In this document: positions 6,195 through 20,407 of the stretch, piece after piece
Numbering within the stretch: position 1 is the stretch's first letter
Layout: each line of letters begins with the position of its first letter
IMG/VR virus record: IMGVR_UViG_3300018428_000214
Span: 1-22,569 of that record
From: a virus
Reading direction: 5' to 3' (one strand)
Length of the DNA stretch: 22,569 nucleotides
Notes under the pieces: generated by a model
Told to the model about the DNA's origin: nothing
Databases searched by the model: none
The model's input: the letters and a program-made list of their open reading frames with translations, nothing else
Made by a program: the position numbers and the translations under genes

Positions 6195-6919
6195 TATCTG
6201 TCCCTTGCAAAAGCTCTATTGGCAGCTGAATACGTTGAAGATGATCTTTTAGGTGCGCTAGTTGTCCGACTAGGTATTTGTCCTCTTGCTCTATCTTGAT
6301 TAGAAGGTGTTCCATAATCACCTCTATCAATTTTCTTTTGAATACCTCTTGCTTGAGCCATAGTTGCAGCTCTTGCATCTTCTCTTTCGTCATATCCACC
6401 ATAACTTTTAATGTCTAAGTAATCCATTAAATTTTTAGATCTACCAAAATCAGATTGTTGTATTCTTTGATTTAAACTTCTGATACCACTACTGTCACTT
6501 AGTTTTTTTAAAAGACCAACACCTGGTATAAAATTAGCAAGAAATTTAAATAACTCTGCAATACCGCCTTTACGTTCTTCTACCTCATCAATTTCATCAG
6601 CTTCATTAGCTGATGGAAGAAACTCAAAGTTTGTCCCTTGATCGCTTGGTGTATTTCGAGTAAAGCCTTGTTGTATATCTATAGGACTTCCAAAAGGAAC
6701 AGCTGCAGACGATGCGGTAATACCTGATGGGACCATTCCTAATTGTTGTTTTTGTATGTAAGTTGGACTTACATAAGGTTCAGTAGGTGTAAATAAATTT
6801 TGTTGGTTTGTGGAAGAAGAAAAAGGCACAGCGATTGGCACGGTAGTGCCTGGATAAAATTGTTCATTTGTAGGTCGTTGTTCTACCCTCCCTGTATTTA
6901 CATTAAAAAAATATTCCAT
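6194..6919 (-). CDS. Hypothetical virion-associated protein (241 aa)
   Basis: Complete gene overlapping the nozzle-like gene by one base (TAATG). It begins MEYFFNVNTGRVEQRPTNEQ, followed by a Pro/Ser/Gln-rich low-complexity half. Residues about 115-145 (KGGIAELFKFLANFIPGVGL) are hydrophobic and amphipathic and could insert into or lie on a membrane. The C-terminal third is basic and rich in Arg, Ser and Gln (RIQQSDFGRS, ARAATMAQARGIQKKIDRG), which may bind DNA or be disordered. I do not recognise a family. A structural or internal virion role is suggested only by its position between virion genes. Confidence 0.65.
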   Translation of the reverse strand: MEYFFNVNTGRVEQRPTNEQFYPGTTVPIAVPFSSSTNQQNLFTPTEPYVSPTYIQKQQLGMVPSGITASSAAVPFGSPIDIQQGFTRNTPSDQGTNFEFLPSANEADEIDEVEERKGGIAELFKFLANFIPGVGLLKKLSDSSGIRSLNQRIQQSDFGRSKNLMDYLDIKSYGGYDEREDARAATMAQARGIQKKIDRGDYGTPSNQDRARGQIPSRTTSAPKRSSSTYSAANRAFARDR

Positions 6920-8877
6920 TATCTTCTACCGTCCGGTTGTGCGTCTAACCTAAAGGTTCCATATCTCCAAGATTCACCTGTAGATGTATTAGCTATTTGA
7001 ATAGCTACTAATCGACCTCTAGCTCTCGTATCTATTTTATCAGTAGTTGCTGTAATTGTAAAGGGACCTAACGGTGAACTAACAGCTGTATTATCAGGGT
7101 AATCGTTTAAAAATAATGTAACTGTAGAATTACCACGTAAGTATTTAAAATCAGGTATAAATCTTTTTACAGACATAAAAAACTCTCCATCACCTCTATA
7201 ATCAACAACTCCTGTTGCCTGACCCAAGGCGCTACGCCTTGATGTTATGTCCCAGTCCCCTGATTTAATAAATGCATCAATTGATGTAGTGCCTGAACTG
7301 TTAACTTGGTCGTCACCTAATTCATGAGCATAATAAATAGAAGCGCCATATAAATTAGTTATACCCGATATGTTATCAAAAACAGGTGTTGCTGTTGAAT
7401 CATAATCAGTTGCGTAAGGTAGATCATATACCCCTTGGTCTTGATAACTAGATCTATCTAAAGAAGACGTAGTAAACACATTCTCTGAGTAATTATAGGT
7501 TACACATCTATCAATCTGCGTTGAACCTGATTTAGGATAAAACCAATTAATTTCTGTAAATAAAGCATTGGGTGCACAATAAATTAATTCACTTGCATTA
7601 TAGTTAACACCTAAATTATCTCCATCGGTACTAAATACAAAATCTTCAACCAGACATGGTAATGATTTTACCGTACCATCAAAACTAAAAAATCCTCCTT
7701 CAGCTGACATCCACCATACAGAACCGTTTGCATAAGCTACAGCTTTAGGTCCTATACATCCACAGTTTGTACCAACCTGCCTTACAGAAAAAGTAAAAGG
7801 TGGACCTACGAATTGAACCACATAAGCTGCTTGATCAGTTAATACAAAGACATAATCTTTACCTTGTATGGCAGCTACAATCTTGTTTCCTGTATCTAGT
7901 CTAAATGTACCTGCAGTGTTAGTAGCTGTAGGTGCATAAGTATTTAGATCTTCTTGATTAGAAAATCTAACAAACATCGGATCTTGTGTTAATGGAGCAC
8001 CAATTGTTGTTTCAGTTCCAAAATGAAATAAGTGTCTATCTCTATCAGATACCAAAGTTAATCTTGATTTGGTTGGATTGTTTGTTGTGTTAAAATTTGT
8101 TGTAGTTTGAGAAGCTCTAACGGCTCTAGGTGTTGCAGCTCCAGCATCCCATGTAAAAGTTTTACCATTAAATATTGTTGCAACTAATACTTCTCCGAAG
8201 TTATCAAGGCTCCAGTTGCCTGGATCTAGAATCACGTTGCTTACAGTTCTAGCTGTTCCCCATGTTCCTGTGTTCCATTGATACGTACCCCATCCATAAC
8301 CAGCTGTTTGAAATGTTGGTCCTACTTCTTCATAGGGATTGATAGTGGCTGATCCAGAAGCAGATGCCGCTCCACTAGCATTAACTCTCATTTGAATTGT
8401 AAACGTATCACTGTTAGGCACAGTTAATATTTCAAAAGCCCCTGTAGTAAAATCTGATGCTACATATCCTGTAGGCGGAGTTACAGATGAAAAGGTTACA
8501 TACCTTCCTTTTTCTAAACCATGCCCTACTTTGTTAACAGTTACATTGTTCTGACTAGAAAAGGTATCAAACGTTGCTCCAGTAATACCTGTTGCTAAAG
8601 GGCTGATGTCATAAAAAGCTCCTTCGTAATATAAAAATAAACCCTGAGATGTTCCAATGGCTACATATTTTTCACCATTAAAACTGGTAAAAGCGTGTTG
8701 AGCACGAGCTGCTCCAGGTAGAGTTTCTTGAGCTTCTGTTAGTTGAGTCCAACCACCTATTTTTTCAGGTAATCCATATCTAAATCTTACAAAATCTCCA
8801 TCTACCCATTGACCTTCAGCCCCTGAGTCTGTTGCTTGTTTATTAAATCCAGGTTTGAAATTAAGCTTCTGTAACAT
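6919..8877 (-). CDS. Tail nozzle / phage-stabilisation-like protein (652 aa)
   Basis: Large virion protein. The N-terminus LQKLNFKPGFNKQATDSGAE, then GQWVDGDFVRFRYGLPEKIGGW (residues 5-43), is a common start in podovirus proteins that describe a scaffold of short repeated strands. Many Trp/Tyr-Gly turns follow (FNGEKYVAIGTSQGLFLYYEG, YGWGTYQWNTGTWG, VWWMSAEGGFFSFDG), a pattern of beta-propeller blades. This suggests the tail tube or nozzle class that includes T7 gp12 and the P22 gp10 stabilisation protein. The C-terminal part (SVKRFIPDFKYLRGN, GESWRYGTFRLD) fits the same group. Its size is normal for the class. It shares one base of its TAA with the next ATG. Structural role is fairly safe; the exact homologue is not. 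Confidence 0.7.
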   Translation of the reverse strand: MLQKLNFKPGFNKQATDSGAEGQWVDGDFVRFRYGLPEKIGGWTQLTEAQETLPGAARAQHAFTSFNGEKYVAIGTSQGLFLYYEGAFYDISPLATGITGATFDTFSSQNNVTVNKVGHGLEKGRYVTFSSVTPPTGYVASDFTTGAFEILTVPNSDTFTIQMRVNASGAASASGSATINPYEEVGPTFQTAGYGWGTYQWNTGTWGTARTVSNVILDPGNWSLDNFGEVLVATIFNGKTFTWDAGAATPRAVRASQTTTNFNTTNNPTKSRLTLVSDRDRHLFHFGTETTIGAPLTQDPMFVRFSNQEDLNTYAPTATNTAGTFRLDTGNKIVAAIQGKDYVFVLTDQAAYVVQFVGPPFTFSVRQVGTNCGCIGPKAVAYANGSVWWMSAEGGFFSFDGTVKSLPCLVEDFVFSTDGDNLGVNYNASELIYCAPNALFTEINWFYPKSGSTQIDRCVTYNYSENVFTTSSLDRSSYQDQGVYDLPYATDYDSTATPVFDNISGITNLYGASIYYAHELGDDQVNSSGTTSIDAFIKSGDWDITSRRSALGQATGVVDYRGDGEFFMSVKRFIPDFKYLRGNSTVTLFLNDYPDNTAVSSPLGPFTITATTDKIDTRARGRLVAIQIANTSTGESWRYGTFRLDAQPDGRR

Positions 8878-8922: not shown

Positions 8923-9477
8923 TTATCTAAATTGTTTGCCTGTAATCCAAGCAACTAATGAATATCTCTCACCTTTAGTAACAGGTGTTACTTCATGTAC
9001 CATAAAACTTGGAAAGGCTATTAGTTTACCTTGTTCTTTTGGTACAAAGCCACTGTCACCTATAACAAGGTCACCACCTTTATATGTAGATGGATCTGAA
9101 AGCTGTACAGTAATAGATAATTTTCTTATAGGACCATTAGTCCATCTATCTACATGTTTTCCATAAGCTCCTCTTGGAGCTTTGTAGTGAGTGAATTGAA
9201 ACCCTTCATCAAATCCATGAAGATCAAATTTAAAAAAATCATTGTTTAAAGATTTTACAACATGTGTAACCCTTTGAAACATCCATTGATGCTCTAAGGT
9301 TGGGTATATCCAAGATACTTTACTTTTTCTTCTGTTAAACTTTTTACCGTTAACGGTTCCTTTTTCCAAACCTAATTTTTTTCCTTCTTTTATAATTTTT
9401 TTACATTCTTCTTTGGTAAATACATTGTCCCAATAAGCCCAATCTTGAATAGTATCTTGTTCTAAAGACCAGGTCAT
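8923..9477 (-). CDS. PKHD/P4H-type 2OG-Fe(II) hydroxylase (184 aa)
   Basis: Last gene of the cassette. It has the P4H-like layout: an N-terminal WAYWDNVFTKEECKKIIKEG segment that opens many PKHD-type hydroxylases, HYKAPRGAYGKHVDRW with His108 and Asp110, a strand LSITVQLSDPSTYKGGDLVI, then LIAFPSFMVHEVTPVTKGER with His161 and RYSLVAWITG with Arg171. All expected catalytic residues are present, so activity is likely. Relatives include PiuC-like bacterial enzymes and hydroxylases encoded near T4-like cyanophage tail genes, for which fibre or protein hydroxylation has been proposed. It ends in TAG 45 nt before the nozzle-like gene, where the cassette stops and virion genes resume. Confidence 0.87.
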   Translation of the reverse strand: MTWSLEQDTIQDWAYWDNVFTKEECKKIIKEGKKLGLEKGTVNGKKFNRRKSKVSWIYPTLEHQWMFQRVTHVVKSLNNDFFKFDLHGFDEGFQFTHYKAPRGAYGKHVDRWTNGPIRKLSITVQLSDPSTYKGGDLVIGDSGFVPKEQGKLIAFPSFMVHEVTPVTKGERYSLVAWITGKQFR

Positions 9478-10013
9478 AGCTTATCTCCTACCCATTTTAT
9501 ACTCATTCTTGGAACATGAGGTACATTAAATGGATTAGCTCTATGTAAATCGTCAGCTTGAAACTGTATGACTCTTCCATATTTATATTTTACCTTTTTG
9601 TTTCTTGTTACATTTATAAATTCTCCTCCTTTATTGTCATCTGTAGATCTATCTAATAACAATAAAAACACATGTTGATTTGAATTACCGTCTGTATGAT
9701 TAGTTCCGTTCATACCTTTGAATTGTAAATTAGTTGCAATCTCACTTAATCTTAAATTGGCCTTGAAGTTGTTACATAAAAACCTAAAACAATTTATTAA
9801 TGTTTCAACTAATTCTCTATCATCAAAATATTCTATAAAGTCATTATCAAATCTTTTAAAAATTAATTGACCTAATAATAAATGAGAACCGTATTCTCCT
9901 TTGGGAAAGCTTTTTCTATTAGCTGCGTTATTTGCATACCAGGCACTGTTAATTAATTTATAACTTAGATCATCTAAAAATTTTTTATCGAATAGATTAT
10001 CGTGGTAATTCAT
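9474..10013 (-). CDS. 2OG-Fe(II) oxygenase (179 aa)
   Basis: Complete gene starting 17 nt inside the halogenase end and overlapping the next oxygenase by 4 nt (ATGA). The iron motif is NHTDGNSNQHVFLLLL with His106 and Asp108; GGEFINV follows, then QFQADDLHRANPFNVP with His157 and PRMSIKWV with Arg169. These form a complete HxD...H...R set in the expected order. The N-terminal 90 residues are helical and poorly conserved in appearance. This type is found in cyanophages and marine bacteria. Its place beside the halogenase suggests that the two act on the same product, for example hydroxylation and halogenation of one scaffold; that is inference. Confidence 0.8.
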   Translation of the reverse strand: MNYHDNLFDKKFLDDLSYKLINSAWYANNAANRKSFPKGEYGSHLLLGQLIFKRFDNDFIEYFDDRELVETLINCFRFLCNNFKANLRLSEIATNLQFKGMNGTNHTDGNSNQHVFLLLLDRSTDDNKGGEFINVTRNKKVKYKYGRVIQFQADDLHRANPFNVPHVPRMSIKWVGDKL

Positions 10014-11421
10014 GCTCTCTTAAAAAGTCTTTATGTAAAACAGACTCTTTTTCCCATTCTTTCATTTCGTGTTTATATGTTTCGTAAGGTGTTATAACAT
10101 TATAGAATCTCATATCTTTTGTTTTTTTAATTAGACCTAAACCTTTGCTTACTACGAGCCAACTATCTAGACCAAAAAAAGCATTACACTTATCCGTAAC
10201 ATCTAAGTTATTTAATGTTCCATCCTCTATCTTCGATAAAATTTTTTGTAGTTCACTAGGAATGTCTGTTCTTTTTAGATATGTTTTCCAGAACATACTA
10301 TCTTTTCTTTTGGTTATGTAGTGTAAATATAAGAAAGCTAATACCTTTTCATTATTTAATTCAACTATACTGTTATATGTATCTCTCACACTTTGAGTAG
10401 TGTTTACAAAATCACCTAAAAAATTTTCTAATAGTTTTAATTGAGATATACTAAGCCATATAGAAGTGGCCTCTAAAGGTTCAGTAAAACCAGAAGATAA
10501 ACCAACAGATATACAATTACCAATCCACACTTTTTCAAAACGACCTGCTTTAAACTTTAGTTCTTTTATAGGTTCAATTTTAGTTTTAAATGTTTTTTCT
10601 GCTTCTTCTATTACTTTATCTGTACTAGTGTAATTACTATCGTAAATATAACCAGAGCCAAATCTATGTTGTAATGGTATTTTCCAAACCCATCCATTTT
10701 TCATAGCGATTGCTTGTGTGTAGGGTTTAGGATCTTTATCTTGTTTTATTTTCCAAGGCACCGCTGTGTTAAGTGTTAGGTACTTTGTATAATCAATCCA
10801 CTTACTATTATAATGTTTTCCTATAAGAAGTCTTGAGAAACCTGAACAGTCAAAAACAAAATCACATTTGTAGGATGTTTTATCTTTTAAATATATTTTT
10901 GTTATAATATCTTTTGTAGAATCTATTTTTAGATATTCACCTTTTTTAAGTTTCACTCCTCTTACCAATGCAATGCTTTTTAAATACTCTGCTACTTTGT
11001 TTGCATCGAAATGAATGGCTGATTTAACATGGTGTAAGTCAATTTTATTTTTATAAGATAAATAACTAGAATAAATATTTTTATCTAAATCAATTTTTTT
11101 GTTTAATAAATCTAGTATGGTATAAACGTTTATGTCATTAAATCCGTGAAAGTATTTTTTATTATCACCATTCCAATTTTCAAAACATATTCCATTTTTT
11201 ATAGTTCCACCTGTCTGTTTAATTAAATCAAAAATATCAATATCTAAAAAACGTAAACAATCTATAATATGTGGTGTAGTTCCTTCACCAGCACCAAGTA
11301 CACCAATTTTATCACTCTCAATAAGAGTGATATTAGAACCTTTAAAATATTTATCTAAGTAAAGAGCTGTCAACCAACCCGCTGTACCACCGCCTAAAAT
11401 AACTACATTAAAATTTTTCAT
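9997..11421 (-). CDS. Flavin-dependent tryptophan-halogenase-family protein (474 aa)
   Basis: Full-length member of the tryptophan 7-halogenase family, FAD enzymes that chlorinate or brominate electron-rich aromatic rings through hypohalous acid. The FAD fold is VVILGGGTAGWLTALYL (residues 6-22), with a second motif GVLGAGEGTTP (40-50). The lysine that forms the active halogen carrier fits Lys75 in TGGTIKNGICFENW. The family signature WxWxIP is WVWKIP (244-249), which discriminates halogenases from monooxygenases. The halide-site segment is GFTEPLEATSIW, with Glu317 where PrnA has Glu346; PrnA's Ser-Thr-Gly there is Ala-Thr-Ser. No flavin reductase is in the window, so reduced FAD must come from elsewhere. 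It overlaps neighbours by 14 and 17 nt. Substrate could be tryptophan, a peptide or another aromatic. Confidence 0.88.
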   Translation of the reverse strand: MKNFNVVILGGGTAGWLTALYLDKYFKGSNITLIESDKIGVLGAGEGTTPHIIDCLRFLDIDIFDLIKQTGGTIKNGICFENWNGDNKKYFHGFNDINVYTILDLLNKKIDLDKNIYSSYLSYKNKIDLHHVKSAIHFDANKVAEYLKSIALVRGVKLKKGEYLKIDSTKDIITKIYLKDKTSYKCDFVFDCSGFSRLLIGKHYNSKWIDYTKYLTLNTAVPWKIKQDKDPKPYTQAIAMKNGWVWKIPLQHRFGSGYIYDSNYTSTDKVIEEAEKTFKTKIEPIKELKFKAGRFEKVWIGNCISVGLSSGFTEPLEATSIWLSISQLKLLENFLGDFVNTTQSVRDTYNSIVELNNEKVLAFLYLHYITKRKDSMFWKTYLKRTDIPSELQKILSKIEDGTLNNLDVTDKCNAFFGLDSWLVVSKGLGLIKKTKDMRFYNVITPYETYKHEMKEWEKESVLHKDFLREHELPR

Positions 11422-12142
11422 ATCTTTTTATTATTGATTCAGGTAAAATTTCTTTAACTAAATATTTCTGTTTTCTTATACCATTAGTTCTTACTTTATG
11501 TAAACTAAAAGGATAGATAGAGTCATCATATCTAAGCCCATTTAATTCAAATTGTTTAATTTTATTAGGTAAAAGTATTTTGGTGCCTATAAATTTAGAC
11601 AAGGATTTTAACACATTTGTTGGATTACTTACAAGATCTGAATAGTTAATAAATATATGTTTTTCTTTTGTTTTAACAATATGGTTTATACTACTATAAT
11701 ACTTGTAAATTATATTACCTTCACTTGTAGAATCCATTAGTTGAACACATCTTCTTTCTATATCAAAAGGTTTTTCTAATCTAATAAATGATGCAAGACA
11801 TTCTAAAACAGGGCGATATAAAATAATAAACTTTGGTTCTTTTACAATATTTTTTAAAAGCTTTAAGTTTTCTTTGGTGCCCCATGGTCCTCTGTCTATA
11901 ATATATTTAGAATTCCAATGACTGTAATAATTGTTAAAGATATTATTTACAATATTATTAAGTGATTTTTCATCAGGGAAGTTATTATAAATTTCAGAAG
12001 AAACTTTGAGATTATTTAAATAATAAATTATATCAGGTAAAATAGAGTTAGCTGAAACTTTGATATTTTTATTGCTATTCAATATTACAGAAAACAAAGT
12101 ATTCCCTGCGCGAGGCATTCCTGTTAAGAAAAACATTTTCAT
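11408..12142 (-). CDS. Sulfotransferase-family protein, copy 2 (244 aa)
   Basis: Paralogue of the sulfotransferase about 1.8 kb upstream. It begins directly with the phosphosulfate loop FFLTGMPRAGNTLFSVIL (residues 4-21), closer to the canonical PRSGT form than copy 1. The 3'-phosphate site is KFIILYRPVLECLASFIRL with Arg110 and Ser118. Shared blocks with copy 1 are SANSILPDIIYYL and YIIDRGPWGTKENLKLLK. No secretion signal, so it should act in the cytoplasm with host PAPS; no PAPS-forming gene is in the window. The gene is extremely AT-rich: I count 24 G or C in the 120 bases 11941-12060. It overlaps the halogenase gene by 14 nt. Acceptor unknown. Confidence 0.8.
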   Translation of the reverse strand: MKMFFLTGMPRAGNTLFSVILNSNKNIKVSANSILPDIIYYLNNLKVSSEIYNNFPDEKSLNNIVNNIFNNYYSHWNSKYIIDRGPWGTKENLKLLKNIVKEPKFIILYRPVLECLASFIRLEKPFDIERRCVQLMDSTSEGNIIYKYYSSINHIVKTKEKHIFINYSDLVSNPTNVLKSLSKFIGTKILLPNKIKQFELNGLRYDDSIYPFSLHKVRTNGIRKQKYLVKEILPESIIKRYEKF

Positions 12143-12729
12143 ATAAATGTAAATACAACCACCACTCTTCTGTCACCTGGTTCAGGGAAAGACCCAGCAT
12201 GAAAATGTTTTCCATCAACACACATCACTTTACCTAATTCAGGTGATACTCGTTTCAACTCTTTCATAGGTCTTTTTGAGGTTTCATCTATAGGCAAAAT
12301 AGTAAGTCCACCAGGGTAGAATTTTTTGTCATATATGATGGTGTCTCCAGAAGTGTTATTTAAATACATCATTAATATTTTATGATTAAAATCATGGTCT
12401 ATATGTGGATCTGTGTTTTGATATTTTCCGTGATAGGTAATAGAATTTATAATAGCCCTAGTAATTTGTTTATGTTTTATTTTATGTTTCTTACAAAATC
12501 TTTTGAATATCTCATAGAAGAAAGGATATATATCTGAATTAATAACAGGCTTTTCAGTTTTTACATCATACCTTCTTATTAAGACGTGTCCGTAAAATGG
12601 GAATTTTTCACTCGTCGCTTGAGCAAACCTATACCAAGGAAAATCTGCAGTGTGAACTACGTTGTTATATATAAACTCTTTTTCTTTTTTCGTAAAAAAG
12701 TTTTTACTTTCTTTATAAAATAGCTTCAT
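12139..12729 (-). CDS. 2OG-Fe(II) oxygenase with HxD motif (196 aa)
   Basis: Complete gene overlapping both neighbours (17 nt upstream; ATGA downstream). The iron-binding triad is visible as DPHIDHDFNHK (His109, Asp111) with GKHFHAGS (His175 or His177), followed by the basic pair Arg187/Arg188 in GDRRVVVVFTF, which would hold 2-oxoglutarate. The stretch between, MMYLNNTSGDTIIY and PGGLTILP, matches the beta-helix strands of 2OG dioxygenases that act on free substrates or protein side chains. The N-terminal half (FYKESKNFFTKKEKEFIYNN) is a helical cap. It belongs to a third sequence type within the cassette. The immediately following gene is the second sulfotransferase, so hydroxylation followed by sulfation is an attractive but unproven order. 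Confidence 0.8.
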   Translation of the reverse strand: MKLFYKESKNFFTKKEKEFIYNNVVHTADFPWYRFAQATSEKFPFYGHVLIRRYDVKTEKPVINSDIYPFFYEIFKRFCKKHKIKHKQITRAIINSITYHGKYQNTDPHIDHDFNHKILMMYLNNTSGDTIIYDKKFYPGGLTILPIDETSKRPMKELKRVSPELGKVMCVDGKHFHAGSFPEPGDRRVVVVFTFI

Positions 12730-13408
12730 TAAATTTTAAATTTATTACAATAGTTATTCTTGGTTTTTTATATTTTGTTTTTGCTAACGGAATCTCATGA
12801 TGCAGATAACCAGGAAACAACATAATATCGTCTTCCTTTGTAGGTACTTGAAACATTTGATGATACCCTGAATTAGTTATTTTTGTGTGATCTAAATCAT
12901 TGTAAAAACTATTTCTTAAATCTTTAAAGTGTAAAAGTAAATATTCTCCTGGATTGTAAAACAAAGTGTGTGAATGATTGGGTTCAAAATAAACATAATG
13001 AATACATGAGAAGTCGCTCGTTATATGATTATGCTTTCTCATAAAATGTTCTTTATCACACACAGTATAGTTTACTATTTTAAATTCAAAATCTTTCTTT
13101 TTACCTTTTTGAAAAACAATATCTTTAAAGCACGTTTGAAAAAAAGAATTATATAAAGGCAGTAATGTTGAGAAATCTACCCTTGTAAATTTTTTATTGT
13201 TAAAATCATCCAAAGGATGATGCAAATAAGAAGATGATGGATTTGTATTATCCCAATTGTTTCTTACTTTGTTTTTCTTAAAATTAGATAATATTGTTTT
13301 AACAATACCTTTCTTATTATACAACGTTGGGTTTATCTTAGAATTATATATAGGTGTTGTAAATAAAGGTAATTTTTTTATCTCGTATCTGTCATCCAAT
13401 TTAACCAC
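12713..13408 (-). CDS. Putative 2-oxoglutarate/Fe(II) oxygenase, divergent (231 aa)
   Basis: Open frame of 231 codons whose likely start is a GTG at 13408, as there is no ATG near the beginning; a few residues either way are possible. KKLPLFTTPIYNSKI at the start resembles the family's N-terminal strand. The core has HFMRKHNHITSDFSCIHYVY with His126 and His128, and near the end DDIMLFPGYLHHEIPL (His203 or His204) and KPRITIVINL (Arg217). This fits the 2OG-FeII_Oxy_5 pattern, though the SGVYY element is replaced by SCIHYVY. It overlaps the upstream gene by about 31 nt and the downstream one by 17 nt. Substrate unknown; catalysis is probable but less sure than for its neighbours. Confidence 0.68.
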   Translation of the reverse strand: MVKLDDRYEIKKLPLFTTPIYNSKINPTLYNKKGIVKTILSNFKKNKVRNNWDNTNPSSSYLHHPLDDFNNKKFTRVDFSTLLPLYNSFFQTCFKDIVFQKGKKKDFEFKIVNYTVCDKEHFMRKHNHITSDFSCIHYVYFEPNHSHTLFYNPGEYLLLHFKDLRNSFYNDLDHTKITNSGYHQMFQVPTKEDDIMLFPGYLHHEIPLAKTKYKKPRITIVINLKFNEAIL

Positions 13409-13938
13409 CCTGTTATAATTATTTTATCTTTATTGTAATCAACAACACCGTTATGGGTGTAAGTAAAATCTGCTGGCCAGACTAAAGTTAGACCCTTAAC
13501 TGCAGGGCAATAAAAATCTTGGTATTTAAAAAATGTTCCGCCATTAGGATTGTCTGTAAGATATGTCATAAAAGTTAAAAGCCTATGAAATGAATGAAAA
13601 TGCCTTTCATAATGAGGTCTATAAAACCCTGCACCAGGTTTATAAAGTTGAACGTTCACAGCTTCTCTTATGTGATAATCATCATTATGAACTTCTGGAA
13701 ATCTTAATTTATAAGAATGCACTACGTTTCCCAAAGATTTCATGTAGTTAGGGATTAAAGAATCTAAATCAGGTGGATTTATACAGAGATCTAAAGACTT
13801 TTTAGTTGACTCATCTATCATCCCTTTACCAACTTTACCAGACGTAAGTTTTTTTTTATTTTTCTTTAATACCTTTAAAACTTCTTTGACTGATTTATCG
13901 TCTATTTTTTCTGCGAGTATTCCTAAAGGTGTTTGCAT
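13378..13938 (-). CDS. Prolyl-4-hydroxylase-like 2OG-Fe(II) oxygenase (186 aa)
   Basis: A different oxygenase lineage from the 2OG-FeII_Oxy_5-like genes. The double-stranded beta-helix core reads VNVQLYKPGAGFYRPHYE, with His109 and Glu111 forming an HxE variant of the HxD iron motif, then LLTFMTYLTDNPNGGTFF, a strand pattern of P4H-like enzymes. LTLVWPADFTYTHNG gives His162 and KIIITGWLNW gives Lys172, the likely 2-oxoglutarate contact in place of Arg. The N-terminal 70 residues are a Lys-rich helical extension. Related phage and cyanobacterial proteins also use His-x-Glu, so I expect it to be active. It starts within the end of the sulfotransferase and overlaps the next gene by about 31 nt. 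Protein or small-molecule substrate unknown. Confidence 0.8.
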   Translation of the reverse strand: MQTPLGILAEKIDDKSVKEVLKVLKKNKKKLTSGKVGKGMIDESTKKSLDLCINPPDLDSLIPNYMKSLGNVVHSYKLRFPEVHNDDYHIREAVNVQLYKPGAGFYRPHYERHFHSFHRLLTFMTYLTDNPNGGTFFKYQDFYCPAVKGLTLVWPADFTYTHNGVVDYNKDKIIITGWLNWMTDTR

Positions 13939-14650
13939 ATTTTTTTTCCGTGTATTCAGTTATGTAATCTGTGTATCTGTAGGGAATTAATTTTACTGAA
14001 TCAGTTCTTATTTTTGTTTGTGTTCCTTTTGAAAAGTCTACTTGTTTTAAATTTGTAAAAGAGTGATCTTTGTAATAAGGAATTTCTAAAAAACTGTAAA
14101 TACCTTTGATTACTTTTTTTGGATTTTTACATAAGTCTTTATATTGAATAACTAATAAATCTTTCTTATGGTTTTTCTTTAGATTTTCATAAGACAGAAT
14201 AGTCTTGCCTATAGGTCCATTTTCATCCATTAAGAAATCACAAAAACCCTCTACCTTGTCTCTTGGACATTTTGATGCTTTAACAAAAGAACCTAACATT
14301 TCTTCAATTGGTCGTATTAAACAAATAAATTTAGAAGGTAATAAATTTGCCATTTTTAAAACCTGCATATTAGCGGGTGTTCCCCATGCACTTCTGTCTA
14401 TAATATATTTGGCATTCCAATCTTTATAGTAGTCATACATTATTTGTTTAAGAACATTATCAAATGACTGATGATCTTTTTGTTCAGCAAATAAAGTTCC
14501 TTCTTTTAGAACAGCAATGTTATACATCATTTCAGGTAATATACTGTTAGGGCTCATCTTTAAATCTGGATTTTGATTTAAGATAGATGTTAAAACTGTG
14601 TTACCACATCGCATGAAACTAGCCGAGAAAAAAATTTTTTTGTCTTTCAT
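13895..14650 (-). CDS. Sulfotransferase-family protein, copy 1 (251 aa)
   Basis: Resembles PAPS-dependent sulfotransferases, which move a sulfonate from 3'-phosphoadenosine-5'-phosphosulfate to a hydroxyl or amine. The 5'-phosphosulfate loop appears at residues 9-24 as SASFMRCGNTVLTSIL; it deviates from the common PRSGT pattern but keeps Arg, Gly and Thr. The 3'-phosphate site is KFICLIRPIEEMLGSFVKAS with Arg113 and Ser121. Blocks SPNSILPEMMY and YIIDRSAWGTPANMQVLK are shared with the second sulfotransferase of the cassette, so the two are paralogues. No signal peptide or membrane anchor, so cytoplasmic action is expected. Its end overlaps the next gene by 44 nt, the longest overlap here. Activity and acceptor are unproven. 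Confidence 0.78.
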   Translation of the reverse strand: MKDKKIFFSASFMRCGNTVLTSILNQNPDLKMSPNSILPEMMYNIAVLKEGTLFAEQKDHQSFDNVLKQIMYDYYKDWNAKYIIDRSAWGTPANMQVLKMANLLPSKFICLIRPIEEMLGSFVKASKCPRDKVEGFCDFLMDENGPIGKTILSYENLKKNHKKDLLVIQYKDLCKNPKKVIKGIYSFLEIPYYKDHSFTNLKQVDFSKGTQTKIRTDSVKLIPYRYTDYITEYTEKKYANTFRNTRRKNRR

Positions 14651-15162
14651 TTGTTATATTTAAAATCCCAAGAAATTATTGTTCTTTTTTTAACACTTTT
14701 ATTCGGGTTTGTAAAGTGCAGTATGTTAGCTGGAAATACAATTAAGTCTCCCTCTTGCACATTAGGTGATTTTAATACAGTTTTATCTGTGATTTCATCA
14801 TTCCAAGGTTGTATAAAAGTAGTTGATTCATGAACTTTTGGATCAAATTCTAAAAATAATATAGCAGAAAAACCACTACCACCATGTGTATGTGGAGGAT
14901 GAAAATCTTTTTTCTTATAGCTTACAGACCACATATCTGTTATGTAAAGTTTTCTTTCAACACATTTTTGAAACTCATTAATATCATTCTTTAAAATATC
15001 TTCGACTGCATCTTTATAAATAGCTTTAGTCCTATCAGAATTAAACAACTTAGATTTAGTTTTTTTAACTAAACACTTTAATAATTTTTTCTTTTTAATT
15101 TTCCAATCAGTAACGTTTGTTTTAAAAAACGGTATACTGAATAAAGGATTTATTTCTGTCAT
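14647..15162 (-). CDS. Putative 2-oxoglutarate/Fe(II) oxygenase, 2OG-FeII_Oxy_5-like (171 aa)
   Basis: Short oxygenase following the carbamoyltransferase with a 4-nt overlap. It starts INPLFSIPFFKTNV, as in this family, followed by a Lys-rich helical region. The core DFHPPHTHGGSGFSAILFLEF offers His88, His91 and His93 as ligand candidates, with the Ser-Gly-strand that follows them in relatives. The end has EGDLIVFPANILHFTNPN (His149) and KKRTIISWDF (Arg160). It is a little shorter than the sister proteins in the cassette but carries the complete motif set. It overlaps the next gene, a sulfotransferase, by 4 nt (ATGA). Its substrate cannot be read from sequence; hydroxylation is expected. Confidence 0.75.
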   Translation of the reverse strand: MTEINPLFSIPFFKTNVTDWKIKKKKLLKCLVKKTKSKLFNSDRTKAIYKDAVEDILKNDINEFQKCVERKLYITDMWSVSYKKKDFHPPHTHGGSGFSAILFLEFDPKVHESTTFIQPWNDEITDKTVLKSPNVQEGDLIVFPANILHFTNPNKSVKKRTIISWDFKYNK

Positions 15163-16682
15163 TTTTTAATTAGGTGTTGTTTATCAGGGAGATAAATATA
15201 TTTCAAGTCAGTCTGATGAAACATTTCCATTAGTTGTTTAAATGTTGCTACTATTGGTTTACCTGCAATATTTAATGAAGTGTTTAGCATAACAGGCATT
15301 GAATACTGTTTATAATGTTCTTTTAACAATTTATAAAAATGATAATTGTCTTTTTGTTTTACAGTTTGTACTCTGCATGTATTATCAACGTGAGTAATTC
15401 CAGGGACTTTATTATTTAAAACTTTGGTAGCATAAGACATGAAAGGCGTTTCTTTTTTACCGTTTAGATCAAACCACGATTTTACTTTATCTTGTAAGAC
15501 GCTGCCTGCATAAGGTCTATACCATTCTCTTTTCTTAAATTTATTTACAATTTCTTTTGCATGTGAGTTTTCAGCATTGAACAACAAAGATCTATTTCCA
15601 AGAGCTCTTGGGCCACCTTCAGGTCTTCCTTGAAAAATTGCAACTAAGTTGTTTTGTTTTATTAGCTTAGATATCTCGATATAATTAGTATTTGTTTTTA
15701 AGTCTGGGTATGTAGGCTCAATTCCAAGATATAAATTAGAGTAGGGTTTTACTTTAATATTATTGTCTCTAGCTTCTAACAGCGCACATCCCATGGCAGT
15801 TCCTCCATCGTGTGATATTGGATCTACAAATATATTTTTTGTCAGATTTAATACTTCATAGTTAGCTTGGCAATTTTGAAAAAAACCTCCAGATAAACAT
15901 ATATTTGCATCTGGGTCTTTTTCTAAAATTTTATTTATTCTATATTTAACTATTTCAGTAGACTCGTATTGAGTTGACTTGGTGTAATAAAATTTATCTA
16001 TGCTTTGATTTAATGCATGCCACATAAAATTTTGATTGACTTTAAATAAATCTCCTTGTTTATAAAATGCATTTATATGAGATAGTTTATTGGAATAAGC
16101 AGACATTCCCATAACAGCGCCAGGTTCTTTACTACCAATGCAGTTAGCTATAAACTTAAATAATAAGCCAGGGCTAATACTTTGAATAGAATGAATATTA
16201 TCTGAATAAGTTTTATCAATACCATTGCAAACTTTCCATTTAAGTTCTATTTTATTTTTATCGATTTTAAATATAGATTCTATCTCAGAACCTATCATTT
16301 CATCATTAAAGTAATAATGATTACCGCTTCCATCCATAACTAGACAGTAGGCTTTATCAAAAGGTGAGTTATAAAAAGAAGAAGCAGCGTGTTGTAAATG
16401 GTGATTAAAATCACATCGAATATTTTTAAAAGTAATATTATATTGATCACAACTGTGTATAATATATTTTTTTAATTCTTCAGATTCTTCTTGATTTACT
16501 TTTGCTCTTGTAAAAACTATTGAATCAAAATAATTATTTTTTAATTCATTCCATAAATAATTAATTCTATGGTCTTTCTTTACACCAGATAGCATTTGTT
16601 CTTCTTGATAAAAAACAATATCGTTACCATCGATAACACACACCGATGCTTCGTGAGAAAAATTAATTCCTAATATTTTCAT
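15159..16682 (-). CDS. Carbamoyltransferase, NodU/CmcH family (507 aa)
   Basis: Full-length member of the O-carbamoyltransferase family, which makes carbamoyl-adenylate from carbamoyl phosphate and ATP and passes the carbamoyl group to a hydroxyl of a sugar or metabolite. The N-terminal Kae1-like domain begins MKILGINFSHEASVCVID and holds FNHHLQHAASSFYNSPF (metal-site His94, His95, His98), VMDGSG (117-120), LSGGFFQN (263-270) and SHDGGTAMG (290-298). The C-terminal domain has GRPEGGPRALGNRSLL (352-367), KREWYRPYAGSVL and MPVMLNTSLNIAGKPIV. All core motifs look intact; the usual Asp before HH is Asn93, a small deviation. Genes of this family are known in some cyanophages. It overlaps both neighbours by 4 nt. 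Acceptor unknown. Confidence 0.9.
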   Translation of the reverse strand: MKILGINFSHEASVCVIDGNDIVFYQEEQMLSGVKKDHRINYLWNELKNNYFDSIVFTRAKVNQEESEELKKYIIHSCDQYNITFKNIRCDFNHHLQHAASSFYNSPFDKAYCLVMDGSGNHYYFNDEMIGSEIESIFKIDKNKIELKWKVCNGIDKTYSDNIHSIQSISPGLLFKFIANCIGSKEPGAVMGMSAYSNKLSHINAFYKQGDLFKVNQNFMWHALNQSIDKFYYTKSTQYESTEIVKYRINKILEKDPDANICLSGGFFQNCQANYEVLNLTKNIFVDPISHDGGTAMGCALLEARDNNIKVKPYSNLYLGIEPTYPDLKTNTNYIEISKLIKQNNLVAIFQGRPEGGPRALGNRSLLFNAENSHAKEIVNKFKKREWYRPYAGSVLQDKVKSWFDLNGKKETPFMSYATKVLNNKVPGITHVDNTCRVQTVKQKDNYHFYKLLKEHYKQYSMPVMLNTSLNIAGKPIVATFKQLMEMFHQTDLKYIYLPDKQHLIKK

Positions 16683-17299
16683 TTAAATTCAACTTCTATA
16701 TCACTACCCATACAAAATTTTCCTACAGGATTAACAGAAAAAGCAATTGAATATCTTTTTCCTTTTGTGATGTTTTTATCAATACTGTGCATTAACGTGC
16801 TTGGAAAAATTAATAAAGTACCTGCTGAAGGAGAGACTGTCCATGTATTAGAATTAAAAAGATTGTATTCTTTAGGTTCATTAAAAGCATAAAAAGTTTC
16901 TATGCCTTCATTTTTATGAAAAGTTATTTTTACACCATCCGAACAGAGTGGATAATAAACTCCACTTAACAAACTATTTCTGTGAATATGAGCTTGTGAT
17001 GAAACGTTAATTGGAACCATTGTTCCCCACGAATTATATATTTTAAATTTAAAATTATTTTTTAAAACTTCTTCTATATATTTTTTAATACAAATATTAC
17101 TTTCTTTTTTTAATGAACTTAATTCTTTATAGTTATTAAATATTTTATTGTCTGTTGACATATATGAATCTGTATTTTTGTTTACAGTTTTTTCAAATTT
17201 AAGTTTTGTTTTTAAAACATGAAGTATTTTTTCGTTATCAATATCTAATTGAAACGAAGCTAAAGGTTGTGAGAATAACGGTAGAATATCAAACTTCAT
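16679..17299 (-). CDS. Putative 2-oxoglutarate/Fe(II) oxygenase, 2OG-FeII_Oxy_5-like (206 aa)
   Basis: The best 2OG-FeII_Oxy_5 match in the cassette. It starts MKFDILPLFSQPLASF, typical of the family's N-terminal strand. The core has QAHIHRNSLLSGVYY, giving His104 and His106 as candidate iron ligands beside the characteristic LSGVYY strand. Then come LLIFPSTLMHSI with His171 and KRYSIAFSVNPVGKF with Arg182. I chose the ATG at 17299; an in-frame TTG at 17305 would add two residues and has no support. It overlaps the preceding gene by 11 nt and the carbamoyltransferase by 4 nt (ATGA). It probably hydroxylates a substrate shared with the neighbouring transferases; the substrate cannot be inferred. 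Confidence 0.8.
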   Translation of the reverse strand: MKFDILPLFSQPLASFQLDIDNEKILHVLKTKLKFEKTVNKNTDSYMSTDNKIFNNYKELSSLKKESNICIKKYIEEVLKNNFKFKIYNSWGTMVPINVSSQAHIHRNSLLSGVYYPLCSDGVKITFHKNEGIETFYAFNEPKEYNLFNSNTWTVSPSAGTLLIFPSTLMHSIDKNITKGKRYSIAFSVNPVGKFCMGSDIEVEFK

Positions 17300-17885
17300 G
17301 AGCAATATCTAAATTAGAGGCTAAACTAATTCTAATTTTTTTACTTTTATTTGGTTCTACTAAATGTGACATATAACTAGGAAAGACTACTAAATCAGCA
17401 ACTTTAGGGAAAAGAATAAAAGAATCAGAATTTAAAAAAGGATAACTTTTATGTTTAATCATATTAGTTTTATGATGTAGCACCGGTGAATCAAAAACTA
17501 AGTTACCACTTTTTTCTGGAACTTGAATATAGAATACAAAAGAAAAATGATTTTCACCATGACAGTGCGCAACATTGTAACTTCCAGGACCACTAACATT
17601 AATCCATGGTCTATGCACTTTAAGAGAAAAAGGAACTTTGACACCTACATTACTTATATAATCACATATATGATTTCTAATGCTGCCAATGAAATCTTCA
17701 CACAATTTGTTTTTTGATATAAAATTAGTTTGATAACCCTCTCTATTACTTTTTACAACACCCTTCTCTTTTTTGTATTTAGACATTGCTAATTTTTTTA
17801 GAGGTAAGATAAATTCTTTGTGAGATTCTAAAAGGTTTATCTGTAAAACAGGATTAGCAAATGTTGAGTAAATTATCCCTTTCAT
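17289..17885 (-). CDS. Putative 2-oxoglutarate/Fe(II) oxygenase, 2OG-FeII_Oxy_5-like (198 aa)
   Basis: First gene of the cassette. The layout fits the small 2OG-FeII_Oxy_5 type (PF13759): an N-terminal PVLQINLLE strand, a helical middle, then PWINVSGPGSYNVAHCHGEN with His107 and His109 as candidate iron ligands. A strand FSFVFYIQVP follows, and near the end DLVVFPSYMSHLVEPN with His174 and RISLASN with Arg185, the expected 2-oxoglutarate anchor. Such enzymes couple 2-oxoglutarate decarboxylation to hydroxylation of an unknown substrate. The ATG sits in a hairpin loop without a ribosome site. Its end overlaps the next gene by 11 nt if that gene uses its ATG. Substrate unknown; family call fairly good. 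Confidence 0.72.
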   Translation of the reverse strand: MKGIIYSTFANPVLQINLLESHKEFILPLKKLAMSKYKKEKGVVKSNREGYQTNFISKNKLCEDFIGSIRNHICDYISNVGVKVPFSLKVHRPWINVSGPGSYNVAHCHGENHFSFVFYIQVPEKSGNLVFDSPVLHHKTNMIKHKSYPFLNSDSFILFPKVADLVVFPSYMSHLVEPNKSKKIRISLASNLDIAHEV

Positions 17886-17895
17886 AGAAAGGGAT
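17875..17895 (-). promoter_or_regulatory. Perfect 9-bp inverted repeat holding the first cassette start codon in its loop
   Basis: On the minus strand the arm ATCCCTTTC (17895-17887) and the arm GAAAGGGAT (17883-17875) pair perfectly around the loop TAT (17886-17884). The A and T of the start codon lie in the loop and its G closes the stem. There is no Shine-Dalgarno upstream. As RNA it would impede initiation on read-through transcripts. As DNA it is a 21-bp palindrome touching the TATAAT box, so an operator is the alternative. No U-run follows, so it is not an intrinsic terminator. Confidence 0.45.
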
Positions 17896-17899
17896 TATA
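17894..17899 (-). promoter_or_regulatory. Candidate -10 box in front of the tailoring cassette
   Basis: A perfect TATAAT on the minus strand lies eight bases upstream of the first cassette ATG, in the 31-nt gap after the last fibre-module gene. The best -35 match is weak (TTTAAA, 16 bp upstream, four of six). If used, transcription would begin only one to three bases before the ATG, giving a leaderless message. The region is very AT-rich, so the call is tentative. Confidence 0.3.
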
Positions 17900-17916
17900 C
17901 ATTTTATTATTTTAAT

Positions 17917-18531
17917 TTAAAGAGGTATATTCCAAGAAGTACCATCCCAAGTTCTAATAGTACCATCATTATGTAAGCCTTTCCAGACTTGATTAGTTTC
18001 GTCCCATTCAGCTCTAATTCTACCGACAGGGATAACTTCATTCATAGTTGTTTCAGGATTAGTTACAGTCATTGTATCTACTAAAGGTATTCTTACAGGA
18101 GTTTCATTGTACGCTACTTTTACAGAAGTAAAAGGTTCACTTCCATAATATCTTTGCTCTTCAGTTGGTTCAGCCACAGGTGGTTGCCACACCCAGTTAC
18201 TGTCCATTGTCCAACTTGGAAAAGGTTGTCTTGATGTTGGTTTAAAAATATCTAAATCAGGATCATATGAATCACCTATTCCAGGTGCTGTATGTCTAAG
18301 AGCTGTTGTGCTTCCATCAGATCCTACTGGGGCATCTTCTTCTCTTTCACCATTACTTGCATTTATTGAATACTGAATCCAATTTGCATTAGGATCATTT
18401 TCACATGTTCTTAAAATTTCAACTCCTTTTGAAGGAACTTCTACTCCGTTTTCATCTAAAATATCTGCGTTAGCAACAACTTTTAAATCTGTTACAATAT
18501 TATTAGAATCTACTTTTGCGTAATGTGCCAT
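17917..18531 (-). CDS. MAHYAKV-family phage structural/fibre-associated protein (204 aa)
   Basis: Complete gene starting four bases after the Gly-rich adhesin stop; I see no clear Shine-Dalgarno, so it probably relies on coupling. The N-terminus MAHYAKVDSNNIVTDLKVV with DENGVEV is a recognisable start in cyanophage and other marine phage proteins encoded among tail-fibre genes. The middle is Pro/Trp-rich (PFPSWTMDSNWVWQPP) and the C-terminus carries RIRAEWDETNQVWKG and TWDGTSWN. No catalytic motif is seen. A role in fibre tip structure or fibre assembly is plausible from context and family company, but its function is not known to me. It is the last virion gene before the tailoring-enzyme cassette. 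Confidence 0.7.
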   Translation of the reverse strand: MAHYAKVDSNNIVTDLKVVANADILDENGVEVPSKGVEILRTCENDPNANWIQYSINASNGEREEDAPVGSDGSTTALRHTAPGIGDSYDPDLDIFKPTSRQPFPSWTMDSNWVWQPPVAEPTEEQRYYGSEPFTSVKVAYNETPVRIPLVDTMTVTNPETTMNEVIPVGRIRAEWDETNQVWKGLHNDGTIRTWDGTSWNIPL

Positions 18532-18535
18532 AGTA

Positions 18536-19315
18536 TTAAGTTGATGGTTGGATTTGGTATCTAATATAGGCTACCCCATCTCCACCTTTTCCTCCACCTG
18601 ACCATGAATACCCAGATCCACCGCCACCGCCTGTGTTAGCGTGTTGAGGCCATCCAGCAGCTGGAGTTCCTCCTCCACCTCCGCCGTTTCCTCGTCCAGC
18701 GTTGTATCCTTTTGATCCGCCACCACCACCTGCGTAGTTGGTAGCACTTCCATTTTGAATAGATGAACTTACTGCATTTCCGCCATCTCTTCCTGATCCG
18801 TTACCTGCAGATCCTGCTCCGCCACCTTGGCCTCCAGCATTGTAAGAAGAGTTGTTACCTCCGTTTGAACTTTGAGCTTGTCCACCATTACCCGCTGCAG
18901 CGTTAGCAGAAAAAGCAGTGCTTGAAGCACCGTTTTGTCCAGAAGATCCTTGATTAGAACCATTTCCAACATTCGGGCCACCTGCTCCTAGTGATAAAGA
19001 ATAATCACCAGCGTTTCCAGCTACACCTTGTGAATTTTGAGTTAGAGCTCCCGCTCCGCCTCCTCCACCTTCTCCGTGGACAACTCCGCCAGCGCCGCCG
19101 CCTCCACCTCCAGTGAAGAAATAATCAAACGTTCCAGCTCCTGGTGAATTACCTTGAGCTGATATTGAAAATTGACCTGAACCATTGAAAGTATGAAGTC
19201 TGTAAATACCATATTCGGTAACAGTACCTCCGTTTGCTAGAATTGCACTGAAGCCTCCAGATGTTAAACCAAAAGCTTTAATTGATCCTGCTCCTCTTGA
19301 TCCTATAAGTGGCAT
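18536..19315 (-). CDS. Glycine-rich tail adhesin-like protein (259 aa)
   Basis: Complete gene preceded by AGGAGGAG. The N-terminus MPLIGSRGAGSIKAFGLTSG is a recurrent marine-phage fibre-associated start. A beta region (YGIYRLHTFNGSGQFSISAQ) leads into a low-complexity domain from about residue 68 to 247 with runs of Gly broken by Asn, Ser and Ala (GGGGGGAGG, GEGGGGGAG, GGQGGGAGSAG, GGGGGSKGYNAGRG, GGGGSGYSWSGGG), closing with GGDGVAYIRYQI. This design is known from glycine-rich phage adhesins, where Gly motifs pack as polyglycine-II helices and loops between them contact receptors. Here that role is inferred from composition and position. The region should be prone to length variation. The stop lies four bases before the next ATG, suggesting coupled translation. 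Confidence 0.75.
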   Translation of the reverse strand: MPLIGSRGAGSIKAFGLTSGGFSAILANGGTVTEYGIYRLHTFNGSGQFSISAQGNSPGAGTFDYFFTGGGGGGAGGVVHGEGGGGGAGALTQNSQGVAGNAGDYSLSLGAGGPNVGNGSNQGSSGQNGASSTAFSANAAAGNGGQAQSSNGGNNSSYNAGGQGGGAGSAGNGSGRDGGNAVSSSIQNGSATNYAGGGGGSKGYNAGRGNGGGGGGTPAAGWPQHANTGGGGGSGYSWSGGGKGGDGVAYIRYQIQPST

Positions 19316-19336: not shown

Positions 19337-20407
19337 TTACGCAAACTGTGATTGAGACGCTAATACTGTGAACGTCGCTGAACCAGTTTTAATAATAGTA
19401 TATGCATAAACATCTAATGAACTTGCATTACCTGCTGATGGCGCAGATCCACCTTGCCATTCTGGAGTAACACTTGATCCATCAATTTGAACTGCTGAAT
19501 TGTAATATGGTGTTGAACCTTGTTTAACAATGTGTGCTATAGTAATAGATTCACCTGTGTCCATTATATTATCAAGAGAGTTTGATCCATCTCCTCTGAT
19601 GTTTAATGTCCAGTTAGCTGCTGCATCTGAAGTAAAGTTCCAAACTGCTTGTGTAAGAACATCGTAGTTAATTGTTCCTGTAGCAGCTGTAGCTTCTGTT
19701 GTAACTTTTTCTGCAACGCTTTGAATTTTACCTTGGCCATTGAAAGTTGCTCTTCCATAACCTTTAGGTGTTAAATTTAAATCTATGTTTGTATCGTCAC
19801 CAGTCGCAGATAAATTAGGTGCATTTCCTGTAGCTGCGTTAGTAACCGTAACTTCGTTAACTGCTGATGCAGTTTTTGCCATCTTAATGTATTCGTTGTT
19901 TGAATCATCTTGAATAGAGTTTGAACTATCCATAATGATGTCTTGACCATTACAATCTAAATCTGCAGAAAGTTGTGGTGAGAAGTCAGATGATAAATCT
20001 GTTAAATTTGTATCAACAACATTTGTTCCATCTGAATAAACTACTTTAGTTCCTTTGTCAGCTGCTGCCCAAGTAACACCAGTTCCAGAAGAAGTTTTAA
20101 CAGTTACTGTGTAAGCACCTGTTGTAGCGTTGTCGATGATATAAGTTTTTTCAATTGAATCAGGAACAACTACGTTAACTGCTCCTCCAATTGTTCCAAC
20201 TAATTTTAATACGTTGTTTTTTCCATTTGAAAGTGCACCATTAGAAAATGTTAAAGTTGCACCTGTAGTAATAGCAACTGATTGAAATCCACCAATTGCT
20301 TGTTCTAAAATTAATAAGTTTGTATTTGTAATTTGTCCCCAAGTTCCTGAGTTTTCCCCAGTTGCTTGTACTGTAAGTTTTAAACTAGCCGATGTAGAGT
20401 TTGCCAT
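19337..20407 (-). CDS. Tail fibre protein (356 aa)
   Basis: Complete gene with ATG and GGAG eight bases upstream. The N-terminus (SLKLTVQATGENSGTWGQIT, followed by NTNLLILEQAIGG) matches the anchor region typical of marine phage tail fibres, in which a Gly-Thr-Trp-Gly turn is followed by an amphipathic stretch. Residues about 45-130 form a Thr/Val-rich beta region. Then comes a repeated fibre element (DLDCNGQDIIMDSSNSIQDD, IDLNLTPKGYGRATFNGQGK) common in phage fibre shafts. The C-terminal 100 residues may form the tip. There are no enzymatic motifs. It probably forms part of the trimeric host-recognition fibre together with the Gly-rich protein encoded next. Good AGGAGGAG spacing ahead of that next gene suggests both are strongly translated. 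Confidence 0.82.
   Translation of the reverse strand: MANSTSASLKLTVQATGENSGTWGQITNTNLLILEQAIGGFQSVAITTGATLTFSNGALSNGKNNVLKLVGTIGGAVNVVVPDSIEKTYIIDNATTGAYTVTVKTSSGTGVTWAAADKGTKVVYSDGTNVVDTNLTDLSSDFSPQLSADLDCNGQDIIMDSSNSIQDDSNNEYIKMAKTASAVNEVTVTNAATGNAPNLSATGDDTNIDLNLTPKGYGRATFNGQGKIQSVAEKVTTEATAATGTINYDVLTQAVWNFTSDAAANWTLNIRGDGSNSLDNIMDTGESITIAHIVKQGSTPYYNSAVQIDGSSVTPEWQGGSAPSAGNASSLDVYAYTIIKTGSATFTVLASQSQFA

Follow-up and report, generated by a model that had tools for sequence, protein, structure and literature searches.

A twelve-gene cassette of predicted oxygenases, sulfotransferases, a carbamoyltransferase and a halogenase is exchanged together with fibre-tip genes in a pelagiphage hotspot and may decorate the fibre tip

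Marine phages often carry genes for 2-oxoglutarate (2OG)-dependent oxygenases, whose role is unexplained and which are usually assigned to host metabolism. Cyanophages such as S-SSM6a carry clusters of 8-12 sugar- and amino-acid-modification genes, interpreted in the passages describing them as decorating the capsule or serving secondary metabolism (PMC7824862), while Fe(II)-dependent oxygenases of metaviromic islands have been tabulated under host recognition, the entry itself giving no mechanism (PMC3909814). The function of phage sulfotransferases was called unclear in a study of OM43 phages (PMC10580990). Here we describe a cassette of twelve genes for such enzymes in IMG/VR virus record IMGVR_UViG_3300018428_000214, a 22.6-kb virus fragment (positions 1 to 22,569, hereafter the window) from a phage group whose host bacteria are the most abundant in the ocean. 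The cassette is a real unit, transferable as one block with two fibre-tip genes, and we tentatively read it as a module that decorates the fibre tip.

The cassette comprises twelve minus-strand open reading frames (ORFs) at positions 8923-17885, encoding eight 2OG-oxygenase-family proteins, two 3'-phosphoadenosine-5'-phosphosulfate (PAPS)-type sulfotransferases, one NodU/TobZ-type carbamoyltransferase and one flavin halogenase. These calls, which rest on Pfam and PHROGs profile matches for all twelve genes, bear out the families that an earlier note had assigned to the same-strand genes of this region, with the refinement that four oxygenases carry HxH and a fifth HxE. In transcription order, with amino acid identities to two related loci (L120 and L184, introduced below), the predicted products are:

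17289..17885, minus strand: OG1, PF13759-type oxygenase with HxH..H..R, first gene (Pfam 2.6e-19; 96% identical to L120, 34% to L184)
16679..17305, minus strand: OG2, PF13759-type oxygenase with a TTG start (Pfam 6.5e-18; TIGR02466 above cut-off)
15159..16682, minus strand: CBT, NodU/TobZ-type O-carbamoyltransferase (Carbam_trans_C 8e-51, Carbam_trans_N 4e-15; phrog_1601 1e-122)
14647..15162, minus strand: OG4, PF13759-type oxygenase (Pfam 3.9e-11; phrog_81 1e-38)
13895..14650, minus strand: ST1, PAPS-type sulfotransferase (Pfam 3e-11, Sulfotransfer_3/_1; AlphaFold model)
13378..13938, minus strand: OG6, PF13640-type oxygenase, HxE variant (Pfam 5.4e-6; phrog_61 3.6e-26)
12713..13408, minus strand: OG7, PF13759-type oxygenase with a GTG start (Pfam 2e-8; phrog_81 6e-25)
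12139..12729, minus strand: OG8, HID..H..R oxygenase with no Pfam match (phrog_274 4.4e-29; 49% to L184)
11408..12142, minus strand: ST2, second PAPS-type sulfotransferase (Pfam 2e-9, Sulfotransfer_3/_1; phrog_27463; shared PAPS-motif residues)
9997..11421, minus strand: HAL, PrnA-like flavin halogenase (Trp_halogenase 1.6e-104; VirX1 and PrnA relatives in the PDB)
9474..10013, minus strand: OG11, HTD..H..R oxygenase (Pfam 7.6e-4, below cut-off; phrog_274 3.9e-13; 48% to L184)
8923..9477, minus strand: OG12, PF13640/PiuC-like oxygenase with HVD, last gene (Pfam 5e-14; phrog_61 2.4e-38)

All eleven junctions overlap, by 4, 17, 14, 4, 17, 31, 44, 4, 4, 4 and 17 nt. The note's statement that every junction overlaps therefore stands, but the 11-nt value among its figures results when ORF 16679-17305 is started not at its TTG but at the ATG two codons further in. 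The genes that flank the cassette in the window are:

19337..20407, minus strand: FIB, tail fibre protein (phrog_12796 tail fiber), on the backbone side of the upstream boundary
18536..19315, minus strand: GLYR, putative fibre-tip adhesin, glycine-rich (32% Gly; PF21722 9.7e-11), which moves with the cassette
17917..18531, minus strand: COL, tip-associated protein of the MAHYAKVDSNN family (phrog_7759), which moves with the cassette
6919..8877, minus strand: NOZ, conserved virion protein (phrog_3287; HTVC027P gp75), on the backbone side of the downstream boundary
4598..5539, minus strand: GT, glycosyltransferase of the GT1 family with a syntenic counterpart in HTVC027P (gp80), outside the hotspot

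The cassette thus occupies a slot with the GLYR and COL tip genes on one side and NOZ on the other. Synteny links the flanks to Pelagibacter phage HTVC027P, which belongs to the HTVC023P-type group (PMC9599517), and the structural-block proteins are found in the same order (NOZ 77%, GT 79%, ph644 75% and FIB 67% identical). On this sequence comparison the window is an HTVC023P-type pelagiphage, with HTVC027P as its nearest cultured relative.

The strongest evidence for a unit came from a second fragment, L120 (IMGVR 3300021356_000201), which matches window positions 8928-19843 at 94.6% DNA identity and holds all twelve genes in the same order together with both tip genes (COL is 94% identical), while backbone proteins share as little as 53% (NOZ) and 24% (u20466) identity. 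Synonymous divergence (dS) between the two loci is 0.02-0.32 for GLYR (0.23), COL and eleven enzymes and exceeds 1 for FIB, NOZ, GT and ph644; the remaining enzyme, OG12, reaches 0.71 versus 0.13 in its neighbour OG11. A boundary inside FIB, where blastn similarity stops mid-gene, was considered and rejected, as FIB synonymous sites are near saturation along the full length; the exchanged block therefore starts at GLYR and ends near OG11/OG12. Its uneven internal divergence makes it a mosaic in its own right. The ratio of nonsynonymous to synonymous divergence (dN/dS) against the L120 copy is 0.01-0.24 for all twelve enzymes, the OG2 value being based on four differences; the ratios indicate purifying selection on all twelve genes. 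GC content is 25-30% in the cassette versus 33-43% in the window flanks, and because of this distinct low GC and the selection on every gene, the cassette is more than a chance gathering.

A third locus, L184 (IMGVR 3300025853_000884), keeps the window order at much greater distance (COL 46%, OG1 34%, CBT 60%, ST1 50%, OG6 49%, OG8 49%, ST2 52%, HAL 55% and OG11 48% amino acid identity); eight enzyme orthologues would fall into one order with a chance of 1/40,320 if order were random. A further relative, L117, keeps OG1, ST1, OG6 and OG8. Were the L120 transfer an assembly chimera, the claim of a module would be weaker, and it does not help that L120 is a single contig. Mis-joining, however, needs near-identity at the edge, where divergence instead changes gradually from OG11 to OG12; moreover, the window's own junctions are independently supported, NOZ-OG12-HAL by locus L004 and FIB-GLYR-COL-OG1 by locus L231, and L184 has the same order independently. 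We regard a chimera as extremely improbable. The twelve-gene set of the window is a real unit that can be transferred as one block with GLYR and COL, and the earlier proposal of one coupled unit is upheld by both L120 and L184.

An unbiased search with the window NOZ returned 80 loci, in which a complete slot was defined as FIB to NOZ. Genes of the 2OG family are present in each of the 29 complete slots (1-9 per slot, median 4), as they are in 31/31 complete slots from a second search with the L120 NOZ (median 5) and the slots of the cultured phages HTVC023P (a COL homologue, 2OG genes and a 'ferrochelatase') and HTVC027P (three oxygenase-family genes, on the opposite strand). Of 421 slot genes, 249 are of this kind, against 2 of 429 genes outside the slot in the same loci; the ratio is approximate, since an incomplete slot was taken to comprise all genes upstream of NOZ. 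Both genes found outside in loci of the unbiased search (L095:6526-7059 and L114:5721-6254) adjoin a glycosyltransferase gene. Cassette GC is below that of NOZ, FIB and GT in 98/98 loci (medians 0.276 vs 0.363).

Slot content varies even among close relatives, nearly every one of which has its own set; in locus L041, NOZ is 94% identical to that of the window and the cassette is unrelated. Non-syntenic content thus lies between conserved structural genes, with fibre genes present, as in a hypervariable host-recognition island, and the slot is a hypervariable mix-and-match hotspot. Among the 76 loci with slot genes in the unbiased search, a halogenase occurs in 8, a carbamoyltransferase in 6 and a sulfotransferase in 2. 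The data thus do not support the dedicated pathway that the earlier note had envisaged as one fixed set typical of the group. The note had also held that the same genes scattered in related phages with no conserved order would speak against its proposal; this is what most relatives show, but the order is kept in L120 and L184. The cassette is co-oriented in 12/12 type A slots (GLYR and COL) and reversed in 17/17 type B slots (collar protein), so that adhesin type predicts cassette orientation with no exception among the 29 complete slots.

COL homologues are also found in the tail-fibre regions of unrelated phages. The gene order in cyanomyophage S-MS29 is fibre, ..., carbamoyltransferase, 2OG gene, 'ferrochelatase', COL homologue, ..., four more oxygenase genes, and in S-CAM8 it is fibre, ..., carbamoyltransferase, 2OG gene. 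The near-complete confinement of 2OG genes to the fibre-tip slot, their block exchange with tip genes and the fact that they turn up again next to this tip protein in unrelated cyanophages together point to virion or surface chemistry. In 18 type A slots compared with the backbone controlled, similarity of the cassettes correlates weakly with that of GLYR (partial rho 0.22, Mantel p 0.03, or 0.04 without L120) and of COL (partial rho 0.26, Mantel p 0.02, or 0.05 without L120). A model of COL (predicted local distance difference test score, pLDDT, 80) had no PDB match. Auxiliary metabolism, in which multiple 2OG enzymes would tune host 2-oxoglutarate, iron or nitrogen status, has been proposed for cyanophages (PMC3037559) and is implied for HTVC027P gp73 (PMC12753301). 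Eight non-redundant enzymes in one fibre-adjacent slot with sulfotransferases and a halogenase are a poor fit to bulk 2OG consumption, and we consider this explanation very improbable here.

We then considered what the enzymes themselves say about substrates. HAL keeps GxGxxG, Lys75 and EPLE314-317, all conserved in an alignment of homologues; with its FAD motif, catalytic Lys and Glu and family profile, it has the sequence features of a flavin-dependent tryptophan halogenase. CBT carries both Carbam_trans N and C domains and the motifs HHLQH and GPRALGNRS, and its relatives of known structure are PDB carbamoyltransferases including TobZ and GdmN. In ST1 and ST2 the PAPS-binding motifs R-x-G-x-T and the RP..E...S region are invariant across seven homologues, giving the 5'-phosphosulfate and 3'-phosphate binding motifs of PAPS sulfotransferases, and the fold match agrees: the AlphaFold model of ST1 (pLDDT 85) finds human TPST1, a protein-tyrosine sulfotransferase, as best PDB fold (Foldseek E 4e-9). 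The sulfotransferase profile is also nearest human TPST1 (1e-9), with small-molecule sulfotransferases behind, and the slot-2OG profile lies nearest prolyl 4- and 3-hydroxylases and PHD2 among PDB entries. The comparison leans towards protein substrates for two of the four enzyme classes, the other two being neutral or contrary. A pattern scan gave no cellular sulfotransferase relatives, and 6/12 SAR11 genomes had weak N-terminal matches in proteins of ~520 amino acids.

These enzyme classes are also those that tailor natural products, with relatives of the PrnA, TobZ, GdmN and CurM type, and a small-molecule pathway has been put forward for cyanophage clusters in the passages cited above (PMC7824862). 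The product would be a halogenated, sulfated and carbamoylated metabolite such as a toxin, antibiotic or signal. Pfam and PHROG scans of the window found no scaffold-forming gene (nonribosomal peptide synthetase, polyketide synthase, precursor of ribosomally synthesized and post-translationally modified peptides, or terpene synthase), and there was none among the slot genes examined. In addition, the sets vary freely between phages, always at the fibre tip, but a pathway needs a fixed set; a metabolite is therefore improbable. A macromolecular target, as the earlier note had favoured, and one near the fibres, is still the best-fitting reading.

Seven of the eight cassette oxygenases match PF13640 or PF13759, one of the seven (OG11) below threshold. 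HxD is present in OG8, OG11 and OG12 and HxE in OG6, each with the distal His. OG1, OG2, OG4 and OG7 (PF13759/TIGR02466) have HxH...H...R, the histidines of which are practically invariant across 65 slot homologues. The label 'DNA endonuclease V' of phrog_274, whose members OG8 and OG11 are 2OG-type proteins, is probably wrong. Phage 'ferrochelatases' accompany 2OG genes in HTVC023P-type pelagiphages (PMC9599517), and those of phrog_2954/3531 match a slot family (C1_204); examples are L140:8978-9691, with its family members, and L144:6302-6922 (HTVC023P gp67). Because 46/48 members of this family carry HxD...H...R and its profile matches the 2OG profile in hhalign (probability 96%, E 3e-9), the phage 'ferrochelatase' is probably a misannotated oxygenase of the 2OG type.

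The above findings are consistent with a horizontally exchanged fibre-tip decoration module that alters host recognition, a reading we favour tentatively. Several points weigh against it. The carbamoyltransferases and halogenases of known structure that come closest to CBT and HAL work on small molecules or sugars. TPST has an acidic GEE stretch, known as the region of the catalytic base, that is not conserved in ST1 and ST2, where SPNS is aligned; these proteins therefore have a TPST-like fold and are not classed as TPST. HxD is absent from OG1, OG2, OG4 and OG7, for which '2OG oxygenase' is therefore a family call rather than a demonstrated activity, and they are best described as putative Fe/2OG-dependent oxygenases. 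Some fibre-region COL homologues have no neighbouring annotated oxygenases, and the Tyr/Trp content of tip proteins showed no clear link to the presence of a sulfotransferase or halogenase; GLYR Trp alone was raised in slots with a sulfotransferase (uncorrected, related sequences). A GYSW motif in the C-terminal glycine run is common to glycine-rich tip proteins (window 18536-19315 and L184:1-561), and it is conceivable that it is a Tyr/Trp target.

Finally, adjacency to the fibre tip is by itself compatible with an action on the host envelope, the main rival, in which a surface glycan or lipid would be hydroxylated, sulfated and carbamoylated to block superinfection or change the receptor; the position beside the fibres would then reflect a host-recognition island common to both. 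NodU/TobZ-type carbamoyltransferases use sugars, and a glycosyltransferase lies 3.4 kb downstream of the cassette. Pelagimyophage host-recognition clusters that mix fibres and glycosyltransferases have been read in this way (PMC7029224), as have cyanophage clusters in the passages describing them (PMC7824862). GT, however, lies beyond the hotspot and has a syntenic counterpart in HTVC027P, the slot genes examined include none for sugar-nucleotide biosynthesis, oxygenases predominate and the unit travels with tip genes; on balance envelope decoration seems unlikely.

If the cassette decorates the fibre tip, the twelve genes would be co-expressed late with the virion genes as an overlapping, translationally coupled operon, and the enzymes would act in turn on tip proteins or on a glycan they carry. 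Side chains would be hydroxylated by the oxygenases, hydroxyl groups would be capped by the sulfotransferases and the carbamoyltransferase, and Trp, Tyr or a different aromatic would be the target of the halogenase, giving a chemically distinct receptor-binding surface; exchange of the module could then alter the host range or counter variation in the receptor. Our data suggest that these phages may diversify their grip on the host through chemistry in addition to protein sequence. It is possible, though doubtful, that in these very abundant phages this amounts to combinatorial post-translational chemistry, in which hydroxylases, sulfotransferases, carbamoyltransferases and halogenases, encoded behind adhesin genes in interchangeable sets, write differing fibre-tip patterns; if true, it would be a chemical counterpart of tail-fibre swapping or diversity-generating retroelements. 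A long-standing annotation puzzle thereby becomes open to direct experiment in HTVC023P and HTVC027P, cultured phages whose slots are small. Regarding expression, a sigma-70 scan found promoter-like sites no more often than in shuffled sequence. A 9-bp hairpin at window 17875-17895 covers the OG1 start codon, and translational control there is possible.

A supply of PAPS encoded in the slot was also considered. A P-loop kinase most like adenosine 5'-phosphosulfate (APS) kinases is found at L184:9240-9972, L189:9255-9972, L121:8800-9535, L117:3443-3931 and L029:3891-4752, and in 4/5 loci a small HxGH adenylyltransferase comes next; both are covered by phrog_10255. The kinase occurs preferentially in sulfotransferase slots (3/4 of L184, L189, L121 and L117; Fisher p 0.0009), with the adenylyltransferase alongside in 3/4 of these. 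Nevertheless, the nearest relatives of the adenylyltransferase are nicotinamide mononucleotide adenylyltransferases and 5/6 SAR11 genomes already have APS-kinase-family genes, so the argument was set aside and stays a lead. ATP sulfurylase of the PF01747 type was found in 0/12 SAR11 genomes, the CysDN type not being searched; PF13759 oxygenases are present in 11/12.

Like the pelagimyophage host-recognition clusters (PMC7029224), the slot lies within the structural region as a hypervariable island that includes tail-fibre genes. Those clusters and the metaviromic islands, in the parts that describe them, hold mainly fibres, lectins or glycosyltransferases (PMC7029224, PMC3909814), whereas oxygenases dominate in the window, with sulfotransferases, a carbamoyltransferase and a halogenase in addition. 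The 2OG genes of HTVC023P-type pelagiphages similarly lie close together as several non-orthologous copies in variable order; they were treated as auxiliary metabolic genes, sulfotransferase, carbamoyltransferase and halogenase going unmentioned (PMC9599517). The closest cultured relative of HAL (44%), in HTVC008M, adjoins a 2OG gene within virion genes, but there the 2OG array and the 2OG-halogenase pair lie between terminase genes rather than in a fibre slot, with no sulfotransferase or carbamoyltransferase annotated in that stretch. HAL belongs to the same flavin-dependent halogenase family as VirX1 and PrnA and shares their catalytic motifs; known substrates in that family are free indoles and aromatics. 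TPST1/2 are the best profile and structural match of ST1 and ST2, which differ in the GEE region and are shorter proteins of a phage family.

The closest described system is the cyanophage modification cluster. Our searches of open-access papers turned up no account of a transferable combination linked to the fibres in this way, but the novelty claimed in the earlier note must be narrowed, as the passages on that cluster already place carbamoyltransferases, an amino-acid halogenase, several 2OG oxygenases and cupins together (PMC7824862). The window likewise unites carbamoyltransferase, halogenase and 2OG genes; the HemK methylase and HAD phosphatase listed in those passages were not found in it. 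The cyanophage cluster is that of a jumbo phage, and its description, in the same passages, mentions neither a sulfotransferase nor fibre-tip linkage nor block transfer, whereas the window is a podovirus-type pelagiphage. What is new relative to the described cyanophage clusters is the addition of sulfotransferases, the linkage to the fibre tip and the transfer as one block.

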